Shown: positions 32,031-61,069 of the stretch, piece after piece | Numbering within the stretch: position 1 is the stretch's first letter | Layout: each line of letters begins with the position of its first letter | Assembly (NCBI RefSeq): GCF_000019165.1 | Contig: NC_010337.2 | Span: forward strand, 1,822,501 to 1,886,500 | DNA from: Heliomicrobium modesticaldum Ice1 | GTDB taxonomy: Bacteria; Bacillota; Desulfitobacteriia; Heliobacteriales; Heliobacteriaceae | Reading direction: 5' to 3' | Length of the DNA: 64,000 bases | Program-made: the position numbers and the translations under genes | Notes under the pieces: model-generated | Seen by the model: the letters and a program-made list of their open reading frames with translations, nothing else | Told to the model about the DNA's origin: nothing | Database searches by the model: none

Positions 32031-33380
32031 ATGATGGCCATGCACTTAAGTGAAAAACTGCAGATCTTATCGACAGCAGCCAAATACGATGTTTCCTGTT
32101 CCTCCAGCGGCAGCAATCGGGGGAGGAAGGCGGGTACGATCGGCAGCACCGCTTCTTCTGGCATCTGCCACAGCTGGTCTGACGATGGCCGCTGCATCTC
32201 CCTGCTCAAAGTTCTCTTCTCCAACGTCTGCTGCTATGACTGTTCCTTCTGCGTTAACCGCGTCTCCAACGACGTTCCTCGGGCTTCTTTTACACCGGAT
32301 GAATTGGCCGATCTGACGATCAACTTCTACCGCCGCAACTACATCGAAGGGCTCTTCCTTAGCTCCGCCATTGAGAAGGGACCGGACCATACGATGGAGC
32401 AACTGGTACGGACGGTTCGCAAGCTGCGCAAGGAATACCGCTTCAACGGATACATCCACTTAAAGGCCATCCCCGGTGCCGACAGCCGGCTCATCGCCGA
32501 AGCCGGTTCCCTCGTCGACCGGATGAGCGTCAATATCGAACTGCCCACCAGTGAAGGCTTGCGCCGCCTGGCCCCTCAAAAAAAGAAGGAGAACATCCTT
32601 CGGCCGATGGGGCAGATCACCGGCGCCATCGCGCAGAACCGGGAGGAGCGACGGCACTTTCGCCGGACGCCCACCTTTGTCCCGGCAGGTCAGAGCACTC
32701 AACTGATCATCGGGGCGACCCCTGAATCAGATCGGCAGATCTTTACCCTCGCCGAGGGCCTTTACCGCAAGTTTCAACTGAAGCGGGTCTACTACTCAGC
32801 CTATGTCCCTGTCAGCAGCGATCCGCGCCTGCCGGCATTGCCTGCGCCGCCCCTGTTGCGGGAGCACCGGCTCTACCAGGCTGACTGGCTGCTGCGCTTT
32901 TACGACTTTCGGGCCGACGAGATCGTCGACGCCGACAACCCGAACCTGGACCTGGAACTGGATCCAAAGACCGGCTGGGCGCTGCGCCACCTCGGCTTTT
33001 TTCCCGTCGAGGTGAACCGCGCCGATTACCGCACCCTCCTGCGCGTGCCCGGCATCGGTGTCAAGTCGGCCAAGCGCATCCTTGCGGCTCGGCGACTGGG
33101 AAGGATCCACTTTGAACACCTGGGCCGGATGGGCGTCGTCATGAAGCGGGCGCGCTATTTCATCACCTGTAACGGCCGCTATTACGGTGAAATCGGGCCG
33201 GACGCGACCAGCCTCCGGCAACGGCTGGTTATGCCGGAGCAGGGGGCGATCAAAGGAATGGCTGGCGGGGAACAGTTGACGTTATTTGGAGAGGAGATGG
33301 CGATGGAATCGGCGATGGCGACGCTGTTTTTGCCTGCGCCTGTTGAGGAACAGTGGTCGGTAGTGACGGGGGATCTATAG
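32031..33380 (+). CDS. Putative DNA modification/repair radical SAM protein (TIGR03916-like)
   Basis: The 449-residue protein has a radical SAM cluster motif CCYDCSFCVNR (CxxxCxxC near residue 70), YIHLKAIPGADSRLIAEAG in the barrel and MSVNIELPTSEGL. Near the C-terminus it has a helix-hairpin-helix (LRVPGIGVKSAKRILAARRL), a DNA-binding element. This matches the family annotated as putative DNA modification/repair radical SAM proteins. That family normally has a partner protein (TIGR03915) encoded next door; none is seen here. The exact start (32031, 32034 or 32040) is unclear. It stands alone before the cobalamin leader. Confidence 0.88.
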   Translation: MMAMHLSEKLQILSTAAKYDVSCSSSGSNRGRKAGTIGSTASSGICHSWSDDGRCISLLKVLFSNVCCYDCSFCVNRVSNDVPRASFTPDELADLTINFYRRNYIEGLFLSSAIEKGPDHTMEQLVRTVRKLRKEYRFNGYIHLKAIPGADSRLIAEAGSLVDRMSVNIELPTSEGLRRLAPQKKKENILRPMGQITGAIAQNREERRHFRRTPTFVPAGQSTQLIIGATPESDRQIFTLAEGLYRKFQLKRVYYSAYVPVSSDPRLPALPAPPLLREHRLYQADWLLRFYDFRADEIVDADNPNLDLELDPKTGWALRHLGFFPVEVNRADYRTLLRVPGIGVKSAKRILAARRLGRIHFEHLGRMGVVMKRARYFITCNGRYYGEIGPDATSLRQRLVMPEQGAIKGMAGGEQLTLFGEEMAMESAMATLFLPAPVEEQWSVVTGDL

Positions 33381-33471
33381 GGAGCGCCCGATCAGGGGAC
33401 GGCAGCCATGGTCAAGAAGGAATTGTCCGCTTCATCCCGAATAGACTAAACCATTAACCGAATAAGTCTGG

Positions 33472-33635
33472 GAACAGGTCACCTGTCCGGAGGACAGGTG
33501 TGAAAAGGGAAGCCGGTGCAAAACCGGCGCGGTCCCGCCACTGTGAGAGGGAGGCCCCCTGTGCGATGTCACTGGCTAGATGCTGGGAAGACGCAGAGGC
33601 GGCTCATGATCTCGAGCCAGGAGACCTGCCTGTTC
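33472..33635 (+). promoter_or_regulatory. Cobalamin (adenosylcobalamin) riboswitch, first of a tandem pair
   Basis: The conserved core is clear: gccggtgcaaaaccggcgcg, ggtcccgccactgtgag, a peripheral arm, and the B12 box gagccaggagacctgcc at about 33614-33630. P1 closes with gaacag (33472-33477) against ctgttc (33630-33635). A terminator 97 bases downstream can serve as its expression platform. Binding of adenosylcobalamin should favour termination and shut off the corrinoid operon. Confidence 0.95.
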
Positions 33636-33731
33636 TGACACTGCCGGTGTACCTACGCGGATAGGGAGGTGGTCTGCTTTGCCGTTCATGCATCTTCCTC
33701 TTGGGATGCGTCACGGTCCGACTGTGCCATG

Positions 33732-33758
33732 ACCTTAGCCGATAGGCTGAGGTTTTTT
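33732..33758 (+). terminator. Terminator between the two cobalamin riboswitches
   Basis: Nine-bp stem accttagcc/ggctgaggt with loop gata and six T residues (33753-33758). No ORF lies between the first aptamer and this hairpin, so it is most simply the off-switch of the first riboswitch. Confidence 0.88.
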
Positions 33759-33830
33759 GCGTTCCAAGGGCGGATGAAGACATTTTTTTCGTTCCTTCCT
33801 CAATAGGAAAGAAATGACAACTGCATCATA

Positions 33831-33999
33831 CGAACAGGTCGCCTGTCCCGAAGGGCAGGAGTGAAATGGAAAGTCCGGTGCAAAACCGGCGCGGTCCCGC
33901 CACTGTAAGGGTGTGATGAGGCTCTTCCATGTCACTGGCAGCAGGCTGCCGGGAAGACAGCGCTTCAGATGACCCCGAGCCAGGAGACCTGCCTCTTCG
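33831..33999 (+). promoter_or_regulatory. Cobalamin riboswitch, second of a tandem pair
   Basis: A second complete aptamer: gtccggtgcaaaaccggcgc, ggtcccgccactgtaag and the B12 box cgagccaggagacctgcc (about 33975-33992). The core matches the first copy closely, while the peripheral arms differ. The start codon of cbiZ is 45 bases further, and no U-tract terminator is visible before it. Translational control of the aaggaggag ribosome site is therefore a reasonable inference. Reads as a two-stage gate with the upstream copy. Confidence 0.95.
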
Positions 34000-34043
34000 T
34001 GCTTACCGGCAACCGCCAACGACACACCAAAGGAGGAGACACC

Positions 34044-34868
34044 ATGGCATACAGGGGCGTCACTACCGGGATGGGAAGTCTCCATAGAAATGCGGAAAGC
34101 GCCTTGGCGTTCATCCGCCGCTATTGCCCGGAAAGGACGCCGGGAAGCTGGCTCTCCCTCCTTCCCGGACTGCGCGGTCGCCTCGAAAAAGAGTGCATCC
34201 TCATCGCCGCCGATATGCCCTGGCGCTGTGTCAGTTCAGGCATCCTCGGTGGGGGGATCAGCGACAAACGTTTTTTTGTCAACCGGCAGGTGCACAAAAA
34301 TTACAATGAATGTCAGCCGCAAGGCGAGACGATCGCTTTTCTGACGGGCGCTTTCCCCGATTGCCCCATCGATCAAACGACTGCGTTGATGACAGCCGCC
34401 CGGGTCTCTCAGGCGGCCTGGATGCAGAACCGTTGCGGCCCTATCGGCCTCTCGGTGGTGGTGACAGCTGGTGTGCGCAACGCCTGCGCCGCCGGCGTCA
34501 CCCCCTGCTGGGAAAGGACACCGGAAATCGGGACGATCAACATCATGGCTTTTCTGGATAACTCACTCACCGACGGGGCACTGATCAACGCCGTACAGAC
34601 CATCACAGAAGCGAAAAGCCGGGTATTGCGGGAATTGCGTATCTGTTGCGCCCAGACAGGCGACTGGGCCACCGGCACAGGTACCGACGCTGTGGTGGTG
34701 GCAGCCCGGCCCGGCGGTGAGCCGCTGGCCTATGCCGGGCCGACGACACGGCTTGGCGCCTTGCTCGCTGCCACCGCCGGCGCAGCCCTGCGGCAGGCTG
34801 TTCAAGCCTACTTGAGCGCAACAGGCCGCCGTGCAGGTCAAGCGAAAGAAGCGACAGGGGCAAAGTAA
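34044..34868 (+). CDS. cbiZ: Adenosylcobinamide amidohydrolase CbiZ
   Basis: The 274-residue protein has the CbiZ family pattern: WRCVSSGILGGGI near the N-terminus, SVVVTAGVRNACAAG, INIMAFLDNSLTDGALINAV and the C-terminal GTGTDAVVVAARPGG. CbiZ cleaves the aminopropanol/nucleotide arm of corrinoids such as adenosylcobinamide to yield cobyric acid, so that foreign corrinoids can be rebuilt. ATG 34044 follows aaggaggag; a longer in-frame start would lie inside the riboswitch. It leads the B12-controlled operon. Confidence 0.94.
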   Translation: MAYRGVTTGMGSLHRNAESALAFIRRYCPERTPGSWLSLLPGLRGRLEKECILIAADMPWRCVSSGILGGGISDKRFFVNRQVHKNYNECQPQGETIAFLTGAFPDCPIDQTTALMTAARVSQAAWMQNRCGPIGLSVVVTAGVRNACAAGVTPCWERTPEIGTINIMAFLDNSLTDGALINAVQTITEAKSRVLRELRICCAQTGDWATGTGTDAVVVAARPGGEPLAYAGPTTRLGALLAATAGAALRQAVQAYLSATGRRAGQAKEATGAK

Positions 34869-34969: not shown

Positions 34970-37900
34970 ATGGTCTTGCATTACTTTTATCGTGCCAATC
35001 AGAGCGGCCGAAAAACAGCGGCGCTGGCGATGGTTTTCCTGCTCCTTTGGAGCCTTTGCCTGCCCCTTTTCACAGCCCATGCGGCGTCGGGAGTTCCCTC
35101 CGTCCAGGCCGGGCAGCTGGCCGGCAAGGCCGTCGATTTCATCTGCAATCAGGTGAAGAGCGGAGAACCTGTTGATGGTTATACGGCTGCCGTGTTGATC
35201 GCGGCAAAGGAGGATCTGGGCGCAGCCAAATGGACGCCGCCTTATTCCTTATCTGTGAAAGAACAACGGATATCTGAGGCGGATGCCCTTGCGATCGGGC
35301 CTGAACTGGGAAGCAAAAACAACCTGATTACCTATCTTTTGGCCAATCAAAATAGCGACGGCAGTTTCGGTCCCTTTGCCAACGAGTATGGGACCAAGGT
35401 CAGCCTGGAAGCTTTGGCCCGGATCAAAAGCGATGTCCCCGTTGGTCCCCTGAAGGAACGGGTCGAACAGGCGATCGAAAAAGGGGTTCACTTTCTGCGG
35501 GAGCGCTTTGCCCAGAGCGATGAAGCCTATTCGAACACCGGGTTCGCTTCTTTTGACGCCCGCTTTGTTTCTGCGCTCGCCCTTGCCGGTGAGGACTTGA
35601 CGCAAGCCTACTGGCAGAAAAAGGGAAAAACGCTGCGCGAGCAGGCTGTCGCCGATGCTGTCTATGCTGCCGACAATCCTGATGGTAAGAGCGTCACCGA
35701 GTTGTCCAAGCACCTGACGGCCCTGTATCAGCTAGAGCCAAACCACGAAAAGATCAACGCCCTTGCGGAAGCCATTCGCAATCAGAAGCAGACCGTCGAC
35801 GACGGCGTCCGCTTCGGCGCATCCCTCTATGATGACGTCGCCGTATTGCAGGCGCTGGGACAAAGCAACCAACTGGCGGGCATCGAGCCGGCGAAGGTCC
35901 TCAACTATATCAACCGGTTCCGCACAGACCACAGTGATGACTGGGGAACGCCGGCAGGGAGCGCCTACGGCAGTTATAGCCCCAAAGAACCGGAACTGAC
36001 GGCCCAGGTGTTGTCAGCCCTTTCCGGATTTAGAGCGGGAGCGGACATCGACAAGGCCATCGATGCCATCCAGACCTACCTCAAAGCGATCCAGCATAAG
36101 GATACGGCGGCCATCCCTGTTTCCGGCGACAGCACTACCGCCACCGCCGAAACGCTGATCGCCTTGAAGCGGCTCGGCCTCCCCTATGAGCAATACGGAG
36201 GAGACGATGGAGGCTGGTCGAAGGCGCCTCGTGTCAAACCGTTGGCGCTTTCCCTCATGGCGATGCAGGCGCTGCAGGAAAAGGAACGCGCCCACAAGCT
36301 GGCAGACTTGCTCCTGGCCCGTCACACAGCGCAGGACGGCTTTTCCAACAGCATCTACAGCGACAGTTGGGCCTATCTGGCCTTGGAGGAAGCTGGAAAA
36401 ATTGCTGAAATCAAGGAAAGCGCCCGCGCCTATCTGTTGAACAAGCAACGACAGAACGAATCGGACAAAGGCGCTTGGGGCGAATCTTTTGGCGGCGCTT
36501 TCTATGCCGACTTCATGTCGACGGCCCAGGCGATCCGGGCGCTAAAAGGTCTGCCCGGGATGGATGGCGATGCTGCTGTTCAACAGGCGATAGCTGACGG
36601 ACTGGCCTACTTGAAGAGCAAGCAACAGGCAGACGGCAGCTTCGGCGGCTCCTTCGACGATCCCGTCGTCGACACGGCGGAAATGATCGTCACCATGCAA
36701 AAGCTCGGTCTGAATCCCGGTGAATTGAAAAACAGCAACCAACAGAGTCCCGTCGATTGGATGTTGACGAAGGCCCTCAACAAGGACGGCAGCTTCGGCG
36801 GCAGCAAGAACGTTTTTGGCGCTACGGAAGCCCTGGCCGCTTACCTGGTGCTAAACGGCCTGCCTTCCGGCGTCGGGTCGGACGGCGGGATCACTCCGCA
36901 GGATGACACAGCCGATGTGTACGTCGCTGTGATCGGCAGATCTGGCGAGAGACTTTTCGGTCCTGCCGCTGTCAAGGTGAGCCTAAAGGGTCGCTGGGGA
37001 ATGACCGTCCTGGGGGCGTTAGAGCGCACCGGTTTGCACTACGCTGACCGAGGCGGTTTCGTGACCTCTATCGCCGGTCAAGCCAACCAGGGGATGTCCG
37101 GTTGGATGTACAAGGTGAACGAAGTCACCCCGATGGCAGCAGCCAAAGATCAGGCGGTGAAATCGGGAGACGAAGTGATCTGGTGGTACAGCGTGGATAT
37201 GAACAACCCCGGACCGACCTGGGACGATGTAATCAGCGGCAAGTCGCTGGGAAGCGTACCGCAGCCGACGAATACGGTTCCGACCAGTATCACTGAACAA
37301 ATCAAGCATTTTCCTCAAGTGTTGCAGGCATCGGATAAAGCGATTCAAGCCTTGGAGCGTTTGAAAAAAGAGGCCGCCTCGACTGCGCTGGCACAGGAAA
37401 GACCTGTCGAGGCGATCGACAGCGGTTTAGTGGCCCTGGTGGTGGTGGGCGAGTTTCAGCCGCTTACCGAAGCGGCCTACCAACAACAGCAGCGTGAACA
37501 GGCTGATAATCGCCTGCTCTTGCAGCAGGAGGTACAGGCCGATCAAGGAGCGGTCATCGCCGATGCCAAGGGAGAAGTCGCCCTGGCGGTGCCAGCCAAG
37601 GCGTTGAGAAGGGACATGAAAGTGACCATCCAGGAAACGGCGCCGCCTTCGGCGACTGAGCAATCAGCGCAACAGGCGCCGGCAGGGTTTCGGTTCCTCT
37701 CGTCCCTCTACCGCTTTGGTCCAGACGGAACGACCTTTGCCGAACCGGTCACCGTCGCCTTGCGCGTGGCGCTGCCCCCGGAAGTAAGCCCGAAAGATGT
37801 GTCGCTGGCTGTCTTTGATGTAAAATCCAAGGCCTGGATGGCCGTGCCTGCCGTCTACGACGCTGTCAAAGGCGTGTTCCTGACGCAACTTCGTCATTTT

Positions 37901-38488
37901 TCCGACTATGCTGTCTTGGCAAGAGCGATGCCCGAGGCGCTTCCGGTTATGGCGAAAGTCCAAGCACCCTTTGCCGATCTGACGGGGTTCGAGTGGGCTG
38001 CCGAGAGCATTCGGCGGTTGTCTGAGGCCGATATCCTCCGCGGTGTTGCGCCGGACAGGTTCGAACCGGGTCGGACCGTCACGCGGGCTGAGTTCACCGC
38101 TTTGCTCGTCCGCAGCCGGCGCCTGCCAACATCAGGCCAGGCGAATTTCTGCGATGTGCAGCCTGGGGATTGGTTCGCCCCGGTAGTGGCCGCCGCTGCC
38201 GAGGCCGGTATCGTCAATGGAGACCCTGATGGTGCTTTTCGGCCCCATGACCGCATCACCCGGGAAGAGATGGCTGTCATGTTAGGCAAATCGCTCCGTT
38301 GGCAGCAGACAGAGACGGGAGGGGCGCCCTTCACCGATCAGGAGGCGATTTCGCTTTGGGCACGCCCTTGGGTCGCCCAAGCGGTCAAGCAAGGCCTGTT
38401 GCGCCGATATGAAGACGGCAGCTTCCGGCCCCGGGCAGAGGCCAACCGCGCCGAGGCGGCGACGCTCATCGACAAGTTGGTGCAGTAA
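34970..38488 (+). CDS. Surface protein: toroid-like repeats, DUF4430 and three SLH domains (putative transcobalamin-like corrinoid-binding protein)
   Basis: This 1172-residue protein has a signal peptide (cleavage near AHAASG, residue 40). Residues 60-640 carry spaced QNSDGSFGPF, QQADGSFGGS and NKDGSFGGS motifs, the pattern of alpha/alpha-toroid (terpene cyclase/prenyltransferase-like) folds. Residues about 645-755 form a DUF4430 domain (VLGALERTGL, GWMYKVNEV, VIWWYS), the type classed as transcobalamin-like C-terminal. Residues 1000-1172 contain three SLH repeats for wall attachment. Toroid plus DUF4430 is the architecture of animal intrinsic factor and transcobalamin. Riboswitch control and the ECF genes support corrinoid capture; ligand binding itself is inferred. 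Ribosome site aggagg precedes the ATG by four bases. Confidence 0.85.
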   Translation: MVLHYFYRANQSGRKTAALAMVFLLLWSLCLPLFTAHAASGVPSVQAGQLAGKAVDFICNQVKSGEPVDGYTAAVLIAAKEDLGAAKWTPPYSLSVKEQRISEADALAIGPELGSKNNLITYLLANQNSDGSFGPFANEYGTKVSLEALARIKSDVPVGPLKERVEQAIEKGVHFLRERFAQSDEAYSNTGFASFDARFVSALALAGEDLTQAYWQKKGKTLREQAVADAVYAADNPDGKSVTELSKHLTALYQLEPNHEKINALAEAIRNQKQTVDDGVRFGASLYDDVAVLQALGQSNQLAGIEPAKVLNYINRFRTDHSDDWGTPAGSAYGSYSPKEPELTAQVLSALSGFRAGADIDKAIDAIQTYLKAIQHKDTAAIPVSGDSTTATAETLIALKRLGLPYEQYGGDDGGWSKAPRVKPLALSLMAMQALQEKERAHKLADLLLARHTAQDGFSNSIYSDSWAYLALEEAGKIAEIKESARAYLLNKQRQNESDKGAWGESFGGAFYADFMSTAQAIRALKGLPGMDGDAAVQQAIADGLAYLKSKQQADGSFGGSFDDPVVDTAEMIVTMQKLGLNPGELKNSNQQSPVDWMLTKALNKDGSFGGSKNVFGATEALAAYLVLNGLPSGVGSDGGITPQDDTADVYVAVIGRSGERLFGPAAVKVSLKGRWGMTVLGALERTGLHYADRGGFVTSIAGQANQGMSGWMYKVNEVTPMAAAKDQAVKSGDEVIWWYSVDMNNPGPTWDDVISGKSLGSVPQPTNTVPTSITEQIKHFPQVLQASDKAIQALERLKKEAASTALAQERPVEAIDSGLVALVVVGEFQPLTEAAYQQQQREQADNRLLLQQEVQADQGAVIADAKGEVALAVPAKALRRDMKVTIQETAPPSATEQSAQQAPAGFRFLSSLYRFGPDGTTFAEPVTVALRVALPPEVSPKDVSLAVFDVKSKAWMAVPAVYDAVKGVFLTQLRHFSDYAVLARAMPEALPVMAKVQAPFADLTGFEWAAESIRRLSEADILRGVAPDRFEPGRTVTRAEFTALLVRSRRLPTSGQANFCDVQPGDWFAPVVAAAAEAGIVNGDPDGAFRPHDRITREEMAVMLGKSLRWQQTETGGAPFTDQEAISLWARPWVAQAVKQGLLRRYEDGSFRPRAEANRAEAATLIDKLVQ

Positions 38489-38516
38489 TCCTGCAACAGT
38501 CTAGGAGGTGAAGGCG

Positions 38517-39248
38517 ATGGGCAAGAAAATCGGCTGGCATTGGGGATTTTTGCTGGTTCTCTTGGCCCTGTTGTTTGGGGCTGTCTCTCTTTCCGGAAAC
38601 AGCGGCACATCGGAGAACATACAGACGGCGCTGAGCACCGCTGCCGATAGGGATGCTTACGAGAAAGCCCAAGGGGCGGTCGCGAAAGAGCCACCTGTTC
38701 TACAGAACACCTCCACTCAACCGAGTGAGGAAGGAACGCAAAAGGGCGTTCCTTCCTCGCCTGCTTCCAAGGAGCTGACGAAAGGCGTAGAAAAGGCCCC
38801 TTCAGGGATGAGCAAGTCAGCCGAGATTCCTGCAGTGACAGGCGGCAAGGAGGCAAAGGGAGAAACAGAGGCTTCTGTAGATAAAGAAATCCCTAAGGGT
38901 CTCTCTGTGTCGATTGCCGTCGTCGGCCAAAAGGGAGAACTGCTTTTCGGACCGGAGAGCGTCTTGATCAAAGACGATAACCGTTGGGGTAAAACGCCCC
39001 TGGGAGCGCTGGAGGCGACAGGATTGCGGTATGGCATGGGCGCAGGTTTCGGAAGTTTTGTCACCAGCATCAACGGCCAGGTTAACCAGGGGATGCGCGG
39101 TTGGATGTACAAAGTCAATGATGAGACGCCCATGGTGGCCGCCAACCAAAAAGCAGTGCAAAGGGATGATCGGATCATCTGGTGGTACAGCAATGAGATG
39201 GATGCGCCGAGCCCCGATTGGGAGGCGCTGCTGCAACAGAAACGATGA
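38517..39248 (+). CDS. DUF4430 protein, membrane-anchored or secreted (putative corrinoid-binding)
   Basis: The 243-residue protein has an N-terminal hydrophobic helix (WGFLLVLLALLFGAVSLSG) without a lipobox cysteine. A charged Ser/Glu/Lys-rich spacer follows (about 35-125), then one DUF4430 domain (PLGALEATGLRYG, GWMYKVNDETP, IIWWYSNEMD). The domain closely resembles that of the preceding surface protein. It lacks the toroid and SLH parts. It may be a membrane-side acceptor passing corrinoid to the ECF transporter; this is inference. ATG 38517 is chosen with aggagg eight bases before. The stop overlaps ecfT as ATGA. Confidence 0.82.
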   Translation: MGKKIGWHWGFLLVLLALLFGAVSLSGNSGTSENIQTALSTAADRDAYEKAQGAVAKEPPVLQNTSTQPSEEGTQKGVPSSPASKELTKGVEKAPSGMSKSAEIPAVTGGKEAKGETEASVDKEIPKGLSVSIAVVGQKGELLFGPESVLIKDDNRWGKTPLGALEATGLRYGMGAGFGSFVTSINGQVNQGMRGWMYKVNDETPMVAANQKAVQRDDRIIWWYSNEMDAPSPDWEALLQQKR

Positions 39249-40195
39249 CCGATGCAGCGCAACGGCGGAATCAGCCGATTCATGTTTTAGAGAGCGCATC
39301 GATACTGACCACCTTGCATCCGGCGGCTGCCTTGACCTATGCTGTCTCACTCCTCTTTCTACTCATGTTCATCGACCACCCCCTCTTTCTCGCCGGCGCT
39401 CTCGCGGTTCAAGCCGTCACGATCGCGGCCTTGGGCCGGTGGGCAAAATGGAACGAGGCGATGGGCTTCGCTCTGCCCATGAGTACGCTGATCCTGCTCA
39501 TCAACCCGCTCCTGGTGCGGTCTGGGGAGACGGTCCTCTGGAGCGGACCGACCATCCCGTTGCTGGGACCGCTGTTCATCACCATGGAAGCTGTGGCCTA
39601 CGGCGCGGCTATGGCCTTGAAACTGCTCAATGTCCTCAGCCTGTTTTTTATTTACAGCGGCATGCTCTCACCTGACGATCTGCTGCATCTCTTCTCCAGG
39701 GTGGCCTTTCGCTCGACTATGGTGATCTCCTTGGCGACGCGGCTTTTTCCGACGATGCGCCGGCGGCTGGAACAGATCCGTCAGATCCAGGAAATGCGGG
39801 GCGTACGTTTTGACGAGGGGACCATCGGGGAGCGGGTGGGCAAGTATGCCGGACTGGTGGAAGCGCTGCTCTTGGCATCACTGGAAGATTCGTGGGAAAC
39901 GGCAGAGGCAATGGAGGCGCGCGCCTTCGGCGTCGGCCCCCGTACGAGTCACCGCCGTAAGCGTTGGCGGCGGCGCGACAGCCTCTGTATGGGCGGGGCG
40001 ATCCTGTCCCTCGCTGCTGCTGTCGCGGGCGCCTGGGAGGGTATGCTGCTCTACGCCTATTACCCGGCCCTCGCTCCCCTTCACGGTGATGTTAAGACGC
40101 TTACGGCTTTGGCCTCTATCCTGGCGGGGTTGCTGGTCCCGGTAATCCTGCATTGGGGGTGTCGCAAATGGACCTTTATTCGCTCCGCGATCTGA
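39245..40195 (+). CDS. ecfT: ECF transporter transmembrane component EcfT
   Basis: This 316-residue integral membrane protein has several helices and the EcfT coupling motifs: RRLEQIRQIQEMRGV near residue 180 and EAMEARAFGVG near 225, the two Ala-Arg-Gly-type helices that contact the ATPases. EcfT couples ATP hydrolysis to toppling of the S component. ATG 39245 overlaps the previous stop. The 3' end overlaps the ATPase gene by 28 bases, so translation is tightly coupled. Confidence 0.92.
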   Translation: MTDAAQRRNQPIHVLESASILTTLHPAAALTYAVSLLFLLMFIDHPLFLAGALAVQAVTIAALGRWAKWNEAMGFALPMSTLILLINPLLVRSGETVLWSGPTIPLLGPLFITMEAVAYGAAMALKLLNVLSLFFIYSGMLSPDDLLHLFSRVAFRSTMVISLATRLFPTMRRRLEQIRQIQEMRGVRFDEGTIGERVGKYAGLVEALLLASLEDSWETAEAMEARAFGVGPRTSHRRKRWRRRDSLCMGGAILSLAAAVAGAWEGMLLYAYYPALAPLHGDVKTLTALASILAGLLVPVILHWGCRKWTFIRSAI

Positions 40196-41931
40196 GCTAT
40201 TTCTATCCTGAAAAAAGGCAGCCTGCCTTGCGCATCAACAGCTTGCGCATCGAAGACGGGGAGTTTGTCCTGGTGTCCGGCTTATCTGGATCGGGAAAAT
40301 CAACGCTGGCTCGGGCCTTGGCGGGGCTCGTTCCCCGTTTTTACGGCGGCCGGTTCAGCGGCGAACTGCGTTATCAAGGCCGCCTGCTGATCGATCTGCC
40401 GCGGCGAGAACTCGCCCGGGAGGTGGCCATCGTCTTTCAAGATCCGGAAAAGCAACTGGTCATGACCGAGGCGGAAGCGGAAATCGCCTTCGGATTGGAG
40501 AATCTAGGCCTTTCCCCAGCTGATATGGCGGCGCGGATCGCCGAGGTGATGAGCTTCTTTCAACTGTCTGCGCTCAAAGGGCGGGAGATCTGGACATTGT
40601 CCGGCGGACAGCAGCAGAAGGTGGCCCTCGCGTCGGCGCTGGCCATGCAGCCGCGCGTCCTCATCCTCGATGAGCCCACATCCCAATTGGATCCGGCAGC
40701 CGCCGAGGAAATCCTGAGTCTTGTCAAGCGGCTGAATGAGGACTTGGCGATGACCATCGTGCTGGTGGAGCAGCGCCTGGACCGGTGCTTCCATCTGGCC
40801 GACCGCGTCTTGTACATGGAAGAAGGGGCTATCGTTTTTAACGGTTCGCCTGGGGAGATGGCCCAGTGGGGCGCCTGTCGAGCGGGCACCCTTGCGCCAC
40901 CGGTGGCTCGTTTCTTTGCCGGAATGGGCCTGTCGCCTGTTCCGATTACCGTCAAAGCCGGGCGCAAAGCCCTTGCGGCGCTGCTCTCTCGGGAAGGCGA
41001 ACCGGAACGAGCACTCTCTCTATCCCCGCCGACAACCTCCAATGCATCGAACCTTCCGGAGCTAGCCACGTTGAAGGGCCGGAAGGGAGTTCCGCCAGCT
41101 AACGCTGCTGTATCGCTGGATCGGATCTGGTTTAGCTACCCTGACGGGTGGGAGGCGTTGCAGGATGTCAGCCTGAGCGTCGCGCCGGGAGACTTTTTGG
41201 CGCTCCTGGGGCCGAACGGCGCCGGCAAATCGACACTCTTGCGGCTCATCGCCGGGTTGTTAAAACCGGGGCGGGGCCGCTGTTCCTTATCATCGGCAAA
41301 GCAAGGGGTTCGCTCCCTCCATGCCGGTGGGCGGATCGGCTACCTGGCTCAAAACCCGAACGACTACCTGCTTCAGGACACGGTAGAAGCGGAAGTGGCC
41401 TTCGGGCGACGCAATTTTGGCCTCCCCGACGACGGGACGGTGGAGAGGCTTTTGCAAGAGCTCCGACTCGAAGCCTACCGCGGCGTTCACCCTCGCGATC
41501 TGAGCGGCGGGGAACGGCAGCGGGTAGCCATCGCCGCCGTCTTGGCCACCGATCCGGAAATCCTCTTGCTCGACGAACCGACGCGGGGGATGGATGAGCA
41601 GCTGAAAGACGAACTGGGCGCGCTGTTGCGACGGCGGATGGATGGTGGGGCCGCTGTAATCCTTGTTACCCATGATGTGGAGTTTGTCGCCCGCCACGCG
41701 ACGCGCGTGGCGATCCTTGACGGCGGCAGGGTGGTCAGAGAGGGCGGTTTGTTGACCGTGCTGGGGGAGTCGCTCTTTTACTCGACCCAGATCAGCCGCC
41801 TGTTTCGCCATGCAGCGCCTCAGCTCCTGACGCCGGAAGCCGCCTGGGCAGCTTTTCGGGATGTAGGTCGGCAGGCGCGCAAGCAAGCGGAGGGAAGGGA
41901 GGCGGACGTCCATGTGGCCTGCTTGGCCTAA
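40168..41931 (+). CDS. ecfA: ECF transporter ATPase, fused EcfA-EcfA'
   Basis: The 587-residue protein contains two complete ABC ATPase domains. Domain 1 (1-240) has GLSGSGKSTLARAL, LSGGQQQKVALASAL and LILDEPTSQLDPAA. Domain 2 (about 315-560) has LGPNGAGKSTLLRLI, LSGGERQRVAIAAVL and LLLDEPTRGMD. ECF modules usually use two separate ATPases, A and A'; here both are on one chain. The ATG at 40168 is preferred to an in-frame TTG upstream. It lies between EcfT and the S component in one operon. Confidence 0.95.
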   Translation: MDLYSLRDLSYFYPEKRQPALRINSLRIEDGEFVLVSGLSGSGKSTLARALAGLVPRFYGGRFSGELRYQGRLLIDLPRRELAREVAIVFQDPEKQLVMTEAEAEIAFGLENLGLSPADMAARIAEVMSFFQLSALKGREIWTLSGGQQQKVALASALAMQPRVLILDEPTSQLDPAAAEEILSLVKRLNEDLAMTIVLVEQRLDRCFHLADRVLYMEEGAIVFNGSPGEMAQWGACRAGTLAPPVARFFAGMGLSPVPITVKAGRKALAALLSREGEPERALSLSPPTTSNASNLPELATLKGRKGVPPANAAVSLDRIWFSYPDGWEALQDVSLSVAPGDFLALLGPNGAGKSTLLRLIAGLLKPGRGRCSLSSAKQGVRSLHAGGRIGYLAQNPNDYLLQDTVEAEVAFGRRNFGLPDDGTVERLLQELRLEAYRGVHPRDLSGGERQRVAIAAVLATDPEILLLDEPTRGMDEQLKDELGALLRRRMDGGAAVILVTHDVEFVARHATRVAILDGGRVVREGGLLTVLGESLFYSTQISRLFRHAAPQLLTPEAAWAAFRDVGRQARKQAEGREADVHVACLA

Positions 41932-42616
41932 ACTGCAAGTTCCGCTCATCCTGGCGCTGGCCGCCGGTTCCCTCTTTGCCAGTCTGATCGGAAGAAACAT
42001 CGTCGGACGGCAGGGTTGGGGATTGTTGGCTCTGGAGATGGTCTTTCTGGCGCTGCTGCTGCTCTTCTGGGCTTTTGAGCGAAAAGAGATCTGTTCCCGC
42101 GAACTCGCCATGATCGCCGTCCTGGGCGCGCTGGCGGCAGTGGGCCGGATCCCTTTTTCCGCCTTGATGGGCATCCAGCCGGTCACCTTTTTGACGGTCC
42201 TCTCCGGCGCAGTCTTCGGTCCCCGGGCAGGGTTCATGGTCGGGGCGACGGCAGCGCTCGTGTCCAATTTTTTTCTCGGCCAGGGACCCTGGACGCCTTG
42301 GCAGATGTTCAGTTGGGGCATGGCCGGCCTGTCGGCAGGCTTGCTGACACGCTTTTTTCCGGACATTGGGCGGCTTTGGATGCTCGCCTTTCTCTTTGCC
42401 TGGGGTTATCTCTACGGGTGGATAATGAACTTCTGGCACTGGAGCGCCTTTGTCCATCCCCATACAGGGCAGTCCTTCTTGCTCACTTATCTGGCCAGCC
42501 TGTCCTTTGACACGGTCCATGCCATCGGCAACTGCCTCTTTTACGCCCTTTTTGGTAAACGATTTACGATGATACTCCAGCGTTTTCGCAATAAGCTGCA
42601 GGTGGCGGTGTCATAA
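41912..42616 (+). CDS. ECF transporter S component, probably for cobalamin/corrinoids
   Basis: This 234-residue membrane protein has about six helices, with RELAMIAVLGALAAVGRIPF and GIQPVTFLTVLSGAVFGPRAG typical of ECF substrate-binding S components. The CbrT-like assignment for cobalamin rests on the riboswitches, cbiZ and DUF4430 neighbours rather than on a decisive motif. It overlaps the ATPase gene by 20 bases. Having its own T and A partners makes this a dedicated (group I) ECF system. Confidence 0.87.
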   Translation: MWPAWPKLQVPLILALAAGSLFASLIGRNIVGRQGWGLLALEMVFLALLLLFWAFERKEICSRELAMIAVLGALAAVGRIPFSALMGIQPVTFLTVLSGAVFGPRAGFMVGATAALVSNFFLGQGPWTPWQMFSWGMAGLSAGLLTRFFPDIGRLWMLAFLFAWGYLYGWIMNFWHWSAFVHPHTGQSFLLTYLASLSFDTVHAIGNCLFYALFGKRFTMILQRFRNKLQVAVS

Positions 42617-60796: not shown

Positions 60797-60949
60797 CGAG
60801 GTGAGGTAGAGGCGCGGTTATCAAGAGTAGCTCCGGGAAGGTCCAACGGCATGGACAGCGCACCGGAGGGAAAGGGATCGCCGCCGAAGTTCGGGTTTGC
60901 CACACCTGGGCTGGGTCTGCAGTGAAGAACTGCAGGACTGTCACCGTCG
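60797..60949 (+). promoter_or_regulatory. Lysine riboswitch (L-box)
   Basis: The conserved core is present: aggtagaggcgcgg, caagagtagctcc, ggagggaaagggatcgccgc, gccgaag and gggctgggtctgcag...ggactgtcacc. P1 pairs cga-ggtga (60797-60804) with tcacc-g-tcg (60941-60949). It lies between a good promoter and a terminator ahead of lysA, so lysine should cause premature termination. Confidence 0.94.
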
Positions 60950-61069
60950 GAACATTCCCACTCCTGAATCGGCCTATTTCGCTCGATGACGGAGGTTTCA
61001 CGGTGGAGCGCTATCTTACGAGATGATTGGGAATCGGAGAGCGGCATTCGCAGGCGTTGACACTAACCG

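Follow-up and report, generated by a model that had tools for sequence, protein, structure and literature searches.

Two riboswitches for the same ligand appear to stand in series before one operon in Heliomicrobium modesticaldum Ice1; what does the second one contribute? Same-ligand tandem riboswitches are usually explained by a steeper response, an explanation that has rarely been tested in a natural pair. The original prediction, read from the sequence of a 64,000-nt stretch of the genome (the window), proposed a two-stage gate before cbiZ, with transcriptional control by the first riboswitch and translational control by the second. We compared the locus with its counterparts in the two other members of the genus that we examined, G004 (the nearer sister) and G003, giving three species with one genome per species. 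Our analysis makes it reasonably probable that the tandem was ancestrally a pair of terminating OFF switches, that the platform of the second has been deleted here, and that copy 2 gives little or no regulated output.

Two aptamers and the platform of copy 1

A covariance-model scan with the Rfam cobalamin family (RF00174; gathering score, 31.5) bears out the two full aptamers in series. Both matches are full length (model positions 1–189) and far above the gathering score, with 125.8 bits (E = 3.4e-31) for copy 1 and 110.8 bits (E = 6.6e-27) for copy 2:

33459–33647, + strand: cobalamin (AdoCbl) riboswitch aptamer, copy 1 (RF00174; sister orthologues 129.2 and 130.7 bits)
33819–34010, + strand: copy 2 of the cobalamin riboswitch aptamer, with an intact core but no expression platform (RF00174; sister orthologues 122.3 and 120.7 bits)

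Among the five RF00174 matches in the genome, only these two are adjacent to each other. The predicted combination of near-identical cores and differing arms is also seen: the shared cores show up as direct repeats (35, 30, 27 and 20 nt) spaced 360–363 nt apart, yet identity over the whole aptamers is 69%. Both copies have the B12 box and L5 (UCCCG), GAGCCAGGAGACCTGCC and GGTCCCGCC, and, judging from sequence, both probably bind corrinoids.

The original prediction had named a separate promoter between the copies as evidence that would count against it. A crude search for sigma-70-type promoters returned no match in 33000–34300, neither for such an internal promoter nor for the main one. Upstream of the tandem lies a gene for a radical-SAM/HHH protein, and the 79 nt between this gene and aptamer 1 (33380–33458) contain a block, GAAGGAATTGTCC, that is conserved in the three species; no recognisable sigma-70 promoter was found in this region.

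Downstream of aptamer 1, the leader contains the following elements:

33652–33665, + strand: P13/L13 hairpin of copy 1, CCTA[CGCGGA]TAGG, identical in both sisters
33731–33758, + strand: intrinsic terminator of copy 1 (hairpin 33731–33754, T run 33753–33758, −16.2 kcal/mol)
33791–33815, + strand: short hairpin located after terminator 1 and before aptamer 2 (three-species alignment, read by eye)

The terminator, a hairpin followed by six T, is where it was predicted; its position is the same in both sisters, and it is conserved across the three species. L5 of copy 1 reads GUCCCGC, and the CGG of L13 is able to kiss the CCG of L5, so copy 1 has both parts of a complete switch, a P13/L13 able to kiss L5 and a terminator. 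The stem of the 33791–33815 hairpin is maintained in the sisters despite base changes.

In corrinoid riboswitches, the L5 consensus is UCCCG, and L5/L13 kissing holds P13 so that the terminator can form, whereas an unliganded riboswitch pairs the 3′ side of P13 with the 5′ arm of the terminator, a platform model tested by mutation in another corrinoid riboswitch (PMC10653944). By analogy, copy 1 is most naturally read as an OFF control of transcription, and we infer that termination is regulated there. When corrinoid is plentiful, aptamer 1 would bind it, L5 would kiss L13, P13 would be held, and the terminator at 33731–33758 would form; under corrinoid shortage, the terminator 5′ arm would instead be taken up by the 3′ side of P13 and transcription would enter the operon. 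Such an antiterminator appears when the copy 1 leader of G004 is folded: UAGGG, from the 3′ strand of P13, is predicted to base-pair with CCUUA in the terminator arm. The pairing is seen in G004 only and not in the copy 1 folds of H. modesticaldum or G003. Of the two copies, copy 1 by itself has the strongest support as a switch.

A double terminator in the sisters and two probable deletions in the window

The region between aptamer 2 and the operon contains the following features:

34005–34012, + strand: deletion junction; relative to G004, about 167 nt with the copy 2 P13/L13 and terminator are missing
34032–34037, + strand: Shine-Dalgarno (SD) sequence GGAGGA of the first gene (sequence; folding)
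34044–34868, + strand: cbiZ, adenosylcobinamide amidohydrolase (Pfam CbiZ, 8.7e-55; tblastn and junction analysis)
34970–42616, + strand: rest of the operon, namely an SLH/DUF4430 protein, a DUF4430 protein, ECF T (CbiQ-like), a double ATPase and an S component (Pfam, NCBIfam, sister synteny)

Copy 2 has no P13/L13 able to kiss its L5, whereas both sisters have one. No hairpin of at least 4 bp was found in 33995–34043. The whole stretch from aptamer 2 to the ATG at 34044 also lacks a terminator-like site, in agreement with the predicted lack of a U-tract before the start codon.

Both sisters carry the orthologous tandem with the same flanking genes; the sister genus in the order lacks both the pair and cbiZ. 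In a tree of aptamers, the copies 1 of the three species form one clade (support 0.96) and their copies 2 another (0.91), indicating that both copies were present in the genus ancestor and that the tandem predates the genus. The aligned leaders match from aptamer 1 through the end of aptamer 2, terminator 1 included. After aptamer 2, both sisters have ACCTACGGAGGATAGGGAGGTG, the same element as after copy 1 (ACCTACGCGGATAGGGAGGTG). Specifically, the P13/L13 kissing-loop hairpin of their copy 2 is CCTA[CGGAGGA]TAGG, and its terminator, CCCCCAG...CTGGGGGTTTTT, has a folding energy of −19.3 kcal/mol in G004 and −16.8 kcal/mol in G003; the leader with SD and ATG comes only after this terminator. 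In both sisters, each aptamer thus has a platform to itself and the leader holds two complete riboswitches, as in pseudo-cooperative tandems. The window departs from this arrangement in that the second platform is missing: the SD leader adjoins the end of aptamer 2 directly, 167 nt that G004 has are lacking, and B12 box and ATG lie 58 nt apart, versus 225 nt in G004 and 186 nt in G003.

Five coding segments give the topology ((H. modesticaldum, G004), G003), with 1230 sites at which H. modesticaldum and G004 agree against G003, 467 sites specific to H. modesticaldum and 342 specific to G004. Since H. modesticaldum and G004 are closest relatives, the platform common to G004 and G003 was ancestral and its loss occurred in the H. 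modesticaldum lineage. By parsimony over the three species, the inherited tandem would have comprised two complete transcription-terminating OFF switches in series before a corrinoid salvage and uptake operon, and a clean deletion in H. modesticaldum would have removed the whole expression platform of the second. The lack of a U-tract before the start codon is accounted for by this lineage-specific deletion.

The tandem does precede cbiZ, as predicted, and this too appears to result from a lineage-specific deletion. In G004 and G003, a gene encoding a 355-aa protein sits between the tandem and cbiZ (L031:3074-4141). In the window, the first ~30 codons of this gene (34044–34133; MAYRGVTTGMGSLHRNAESALAFIRRYCPE; in G004, MLYPGVTTGIGSLPHGDVESAMAVIRHFCPE) run in frame into cbiZ, a junction which indicates that a second deletion removed most of the 355-aa gene and produced a chimeric cbiZ. 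The 355-aa protein has no match in Pfam, NCBIfam or PDB; its start, TTGIGSLPH, recalls MetE-type methyltransferases. A diverged paralogue of the gene is present elsewhere in the H. modesticaldum genome (G000:C1:987749-988903; 35–37% identity) and also in both sisters. Judged by its annotation, cbiZ with the downstream genes, the first of which encodes a large SLH/DUF4430 protein, is a probable corrinoid salvage and uptake operon. Elsewhere in the window, a lysine riboswitch (RF00168, 108.3 bits) lies at 60799–61021 on the + strand.

Readings of the second aptamer

Aptamer 2 would still be transcribed and probably still folds, with no L13, terminator or evident SD-masking element to act through. 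Its regulated output is thus most likely small or nil, as we infer from the missing parts; copy 2 is probably vestigial, and has possibly been re-used, translation included. Its core and B12 box are intact with no visible decay, so some use may persist. Aptamer 2 has 11 changes specific to the H. modesticaldum lineage versus 3 for G004, a difference that is not significant (p about 0.09, worked by hand); we did not retain relaxed selection as a reading of it, the H. modesticaldum lineage being faster across the noncoding stretch. A sign of decay at core G 33870, a base shared by 89 of 90 aptamers, proved to be an artefact of alignment register: two strong aptamers of the sister genus have TGGAAA as well, and J3/4 is AAA in 11 of the 90.

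Three leads on P13/L13 elements were set aside. An automatic search for L5/L13 complements was too permissive, with 4–5 bp matches almost everywhere; counting any post-aptamer hairpin as P13 was uninformative in general, such a hairpin being present in 98% of shuffled sequences; and new L13-like loops in the start of the cbiZ coding region (for example, AGGGGC against GUCCC) were judged to be chance. A stricter L13 pattern is present in 70 of 90 aptamers, versus 41% of shuffles.

The two-stage gate of the original prediction survives in its first half: copy 1 has a P13/L13 and a transcriptional platform in the terminator at 33731–33758. Its second half, translational control by copy 2, is not supported, given the deleted platform, the missing hairpin and an SD that is predicted to open. 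A re-purposed copy 2 that blocks cbiZ translation when corrinoid is bound, while copy 1 ends transcription, is an unlikely arrangement, though one with some features in its favour: the aptamer 2 core is retained, the deletion has brought the SD at 34032 to a distance from the aptamer similar to that of the former P13/L13 region, and SAM-II/SAM-V bi-mechanism tandems exist (PMC9481103). Against these stand the lack of a P13-like hairpin, a match of GGA to L5 of only 3 bp and a last aptamer helix that stops about 30 nt before the SD. In addition, folding models predict the opposite of what an OFF switch requires. Unconstrained, the SD pairs with 33990–33996 or 33923–33928 and its mean opening is 0.02–0.05, whereas enforcing aptamer 2 raises the predicted opening from 0.04 to 0.36–0.47; such single-sequence folds ignore pseudoknots and are weak evidence for SD accessibility. 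That the platform deletion itself gave rise to a functional gate on both transcription and translation, with the SD region replacing L13 in a former double-terminator tandem, strikes us as rather unlikely; if true, it would be an evolutionary route from a pseudo-cooperative to a bi-mechanism tandem, caught in one species.

The same folds could be read with the opposite sign, copy 2 being an ON-type translational element: G33995C in P1 gives CCUCUU, complementary to the SD, and ligand would stabilise P1 and free the SD. The pairing of 33990–33996 with 34032–34037 dominates the unconstrained fold of aptamer 2 with the leader to 34104; the lineage-specific C33995 contributes to it, the sister base raising the predicted opening from 0.04 to 0.14–0.24; and activating corrinoid riboswitches exist (PMC10653944). 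We nevertheless consider this element improbable, since its sign is opposite to that of copy 1, a C·C mismatch in P1 is ordinary drift, an anti-SD match of six pairs with one G·U easily arises by chance, folds predicted from a single sequence are unreliable for a pseudoknotted RNA, and folds of the short leader show no effect (0.34 versus 0.36).

Another reading has copy 2, like copy 1, work at the level of transcription, but by way of Rho-dependent termination or RNA decay in place of an intrinsic terminator; we consider it quite improbable. In its favour, a proposal exists for a translational B12 riboswitch accompanied by termination through Rho or by decay (PMC11260477), and the deletion leaves an unstructured, C-rich leader at 34005–34030; the ancestral platform, however, used intrinsic termination. 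Finally, an assembly error as the source of both the platform deletion and the gene deletion is extremely unlikely: although a single genome of the species was compared, it is one contig of 3,075,407 bases with 99.99% completeness, and the two separate deletions have clean junctions, an open in-frame fusion and no sign of repeat collapse.

The locus among known tandems

A survey that defined pseudo-cooperative and bi-mechanism tandems counts 26 AdoCbl doublets, and its table gives bi-mechanism only for SAM combinations (PMC9481103). Beyond the three genus loci, 12 of the 82 genomes of the class that we scanned contain about 19 further same-strand pairs with less than 400 nt between the matches. 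The original suggestion that the arrangement is less common is therefore only half right: AdoCbl doublets as such are known. After the second aptamer of the 19 pairs, a terminator was found in 15 by script and in one by eye, two were marginal with a broken U-tract, and one had none. Two terminators in series are the rule among the pairs of the class, and the window is an exception.

One 2.3-Mb genome of the class (G053) has four separate tandem cobalamin pairs, on contigs C21, C23, C24 and C125, and another (G022) has three. G003 holds a further same-strand pair (G003:C15:51016-52785), 1.3 kb apart, the second match being weak (50.9 bits). At L077 (G065:C13), the second aptamer has no clear terminator and the L13 region, GAGGTGATTTTATG, runs into the start codon; this pair is a better candidate for transcription-plus-translation control than the window.

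The nearest known systems are the pseudo-cooperative AdoCbl tandems (PMC9481103), with which the window shares two AdoCbl aptamers in one leader, a terminator after the first and the same expected ligand. The sisters, with a terminator after each aptamer, match these tandems fully, whereas the second riboswitch of the window is without an expression platform. The SAM-II/SAM-V bi-mechanism tandem (PMC9481103) likewise has a terminator after aptamer 1 and aptamer 2 near the start codon, but the window has the same RNA class twice, no translational platform was found in it, and its arrangement arises by loss. In the metE leader of Priestia megaterium, the corrinoid riboswitch resembles copy 1 in its L5 (UCCCG), its P13/L13 and the antiterminator model in which the P13 3′ side pairs with the terminator 5′ arm; that leader joins a SAM and a cobalamin riboswitch, and copy 2 of the window is without all of these parts (PMC10653944). 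The SAM-I/AdoCbl NOR gate of metE leaders also places two riboswitches in series before one operon, but with different ligands, while both of those in the window are of the AdoCbl type (PMC9481103).

The tandem of the window thus belongs to a known kind, and its twist is the lost platform of the second riboswitch. Close relatives have the same tandem before the same operon with and without the second output module, which makes the contribution of the second switch directly testable. What happens to an aptamer once its platform is gone is likewise testable.
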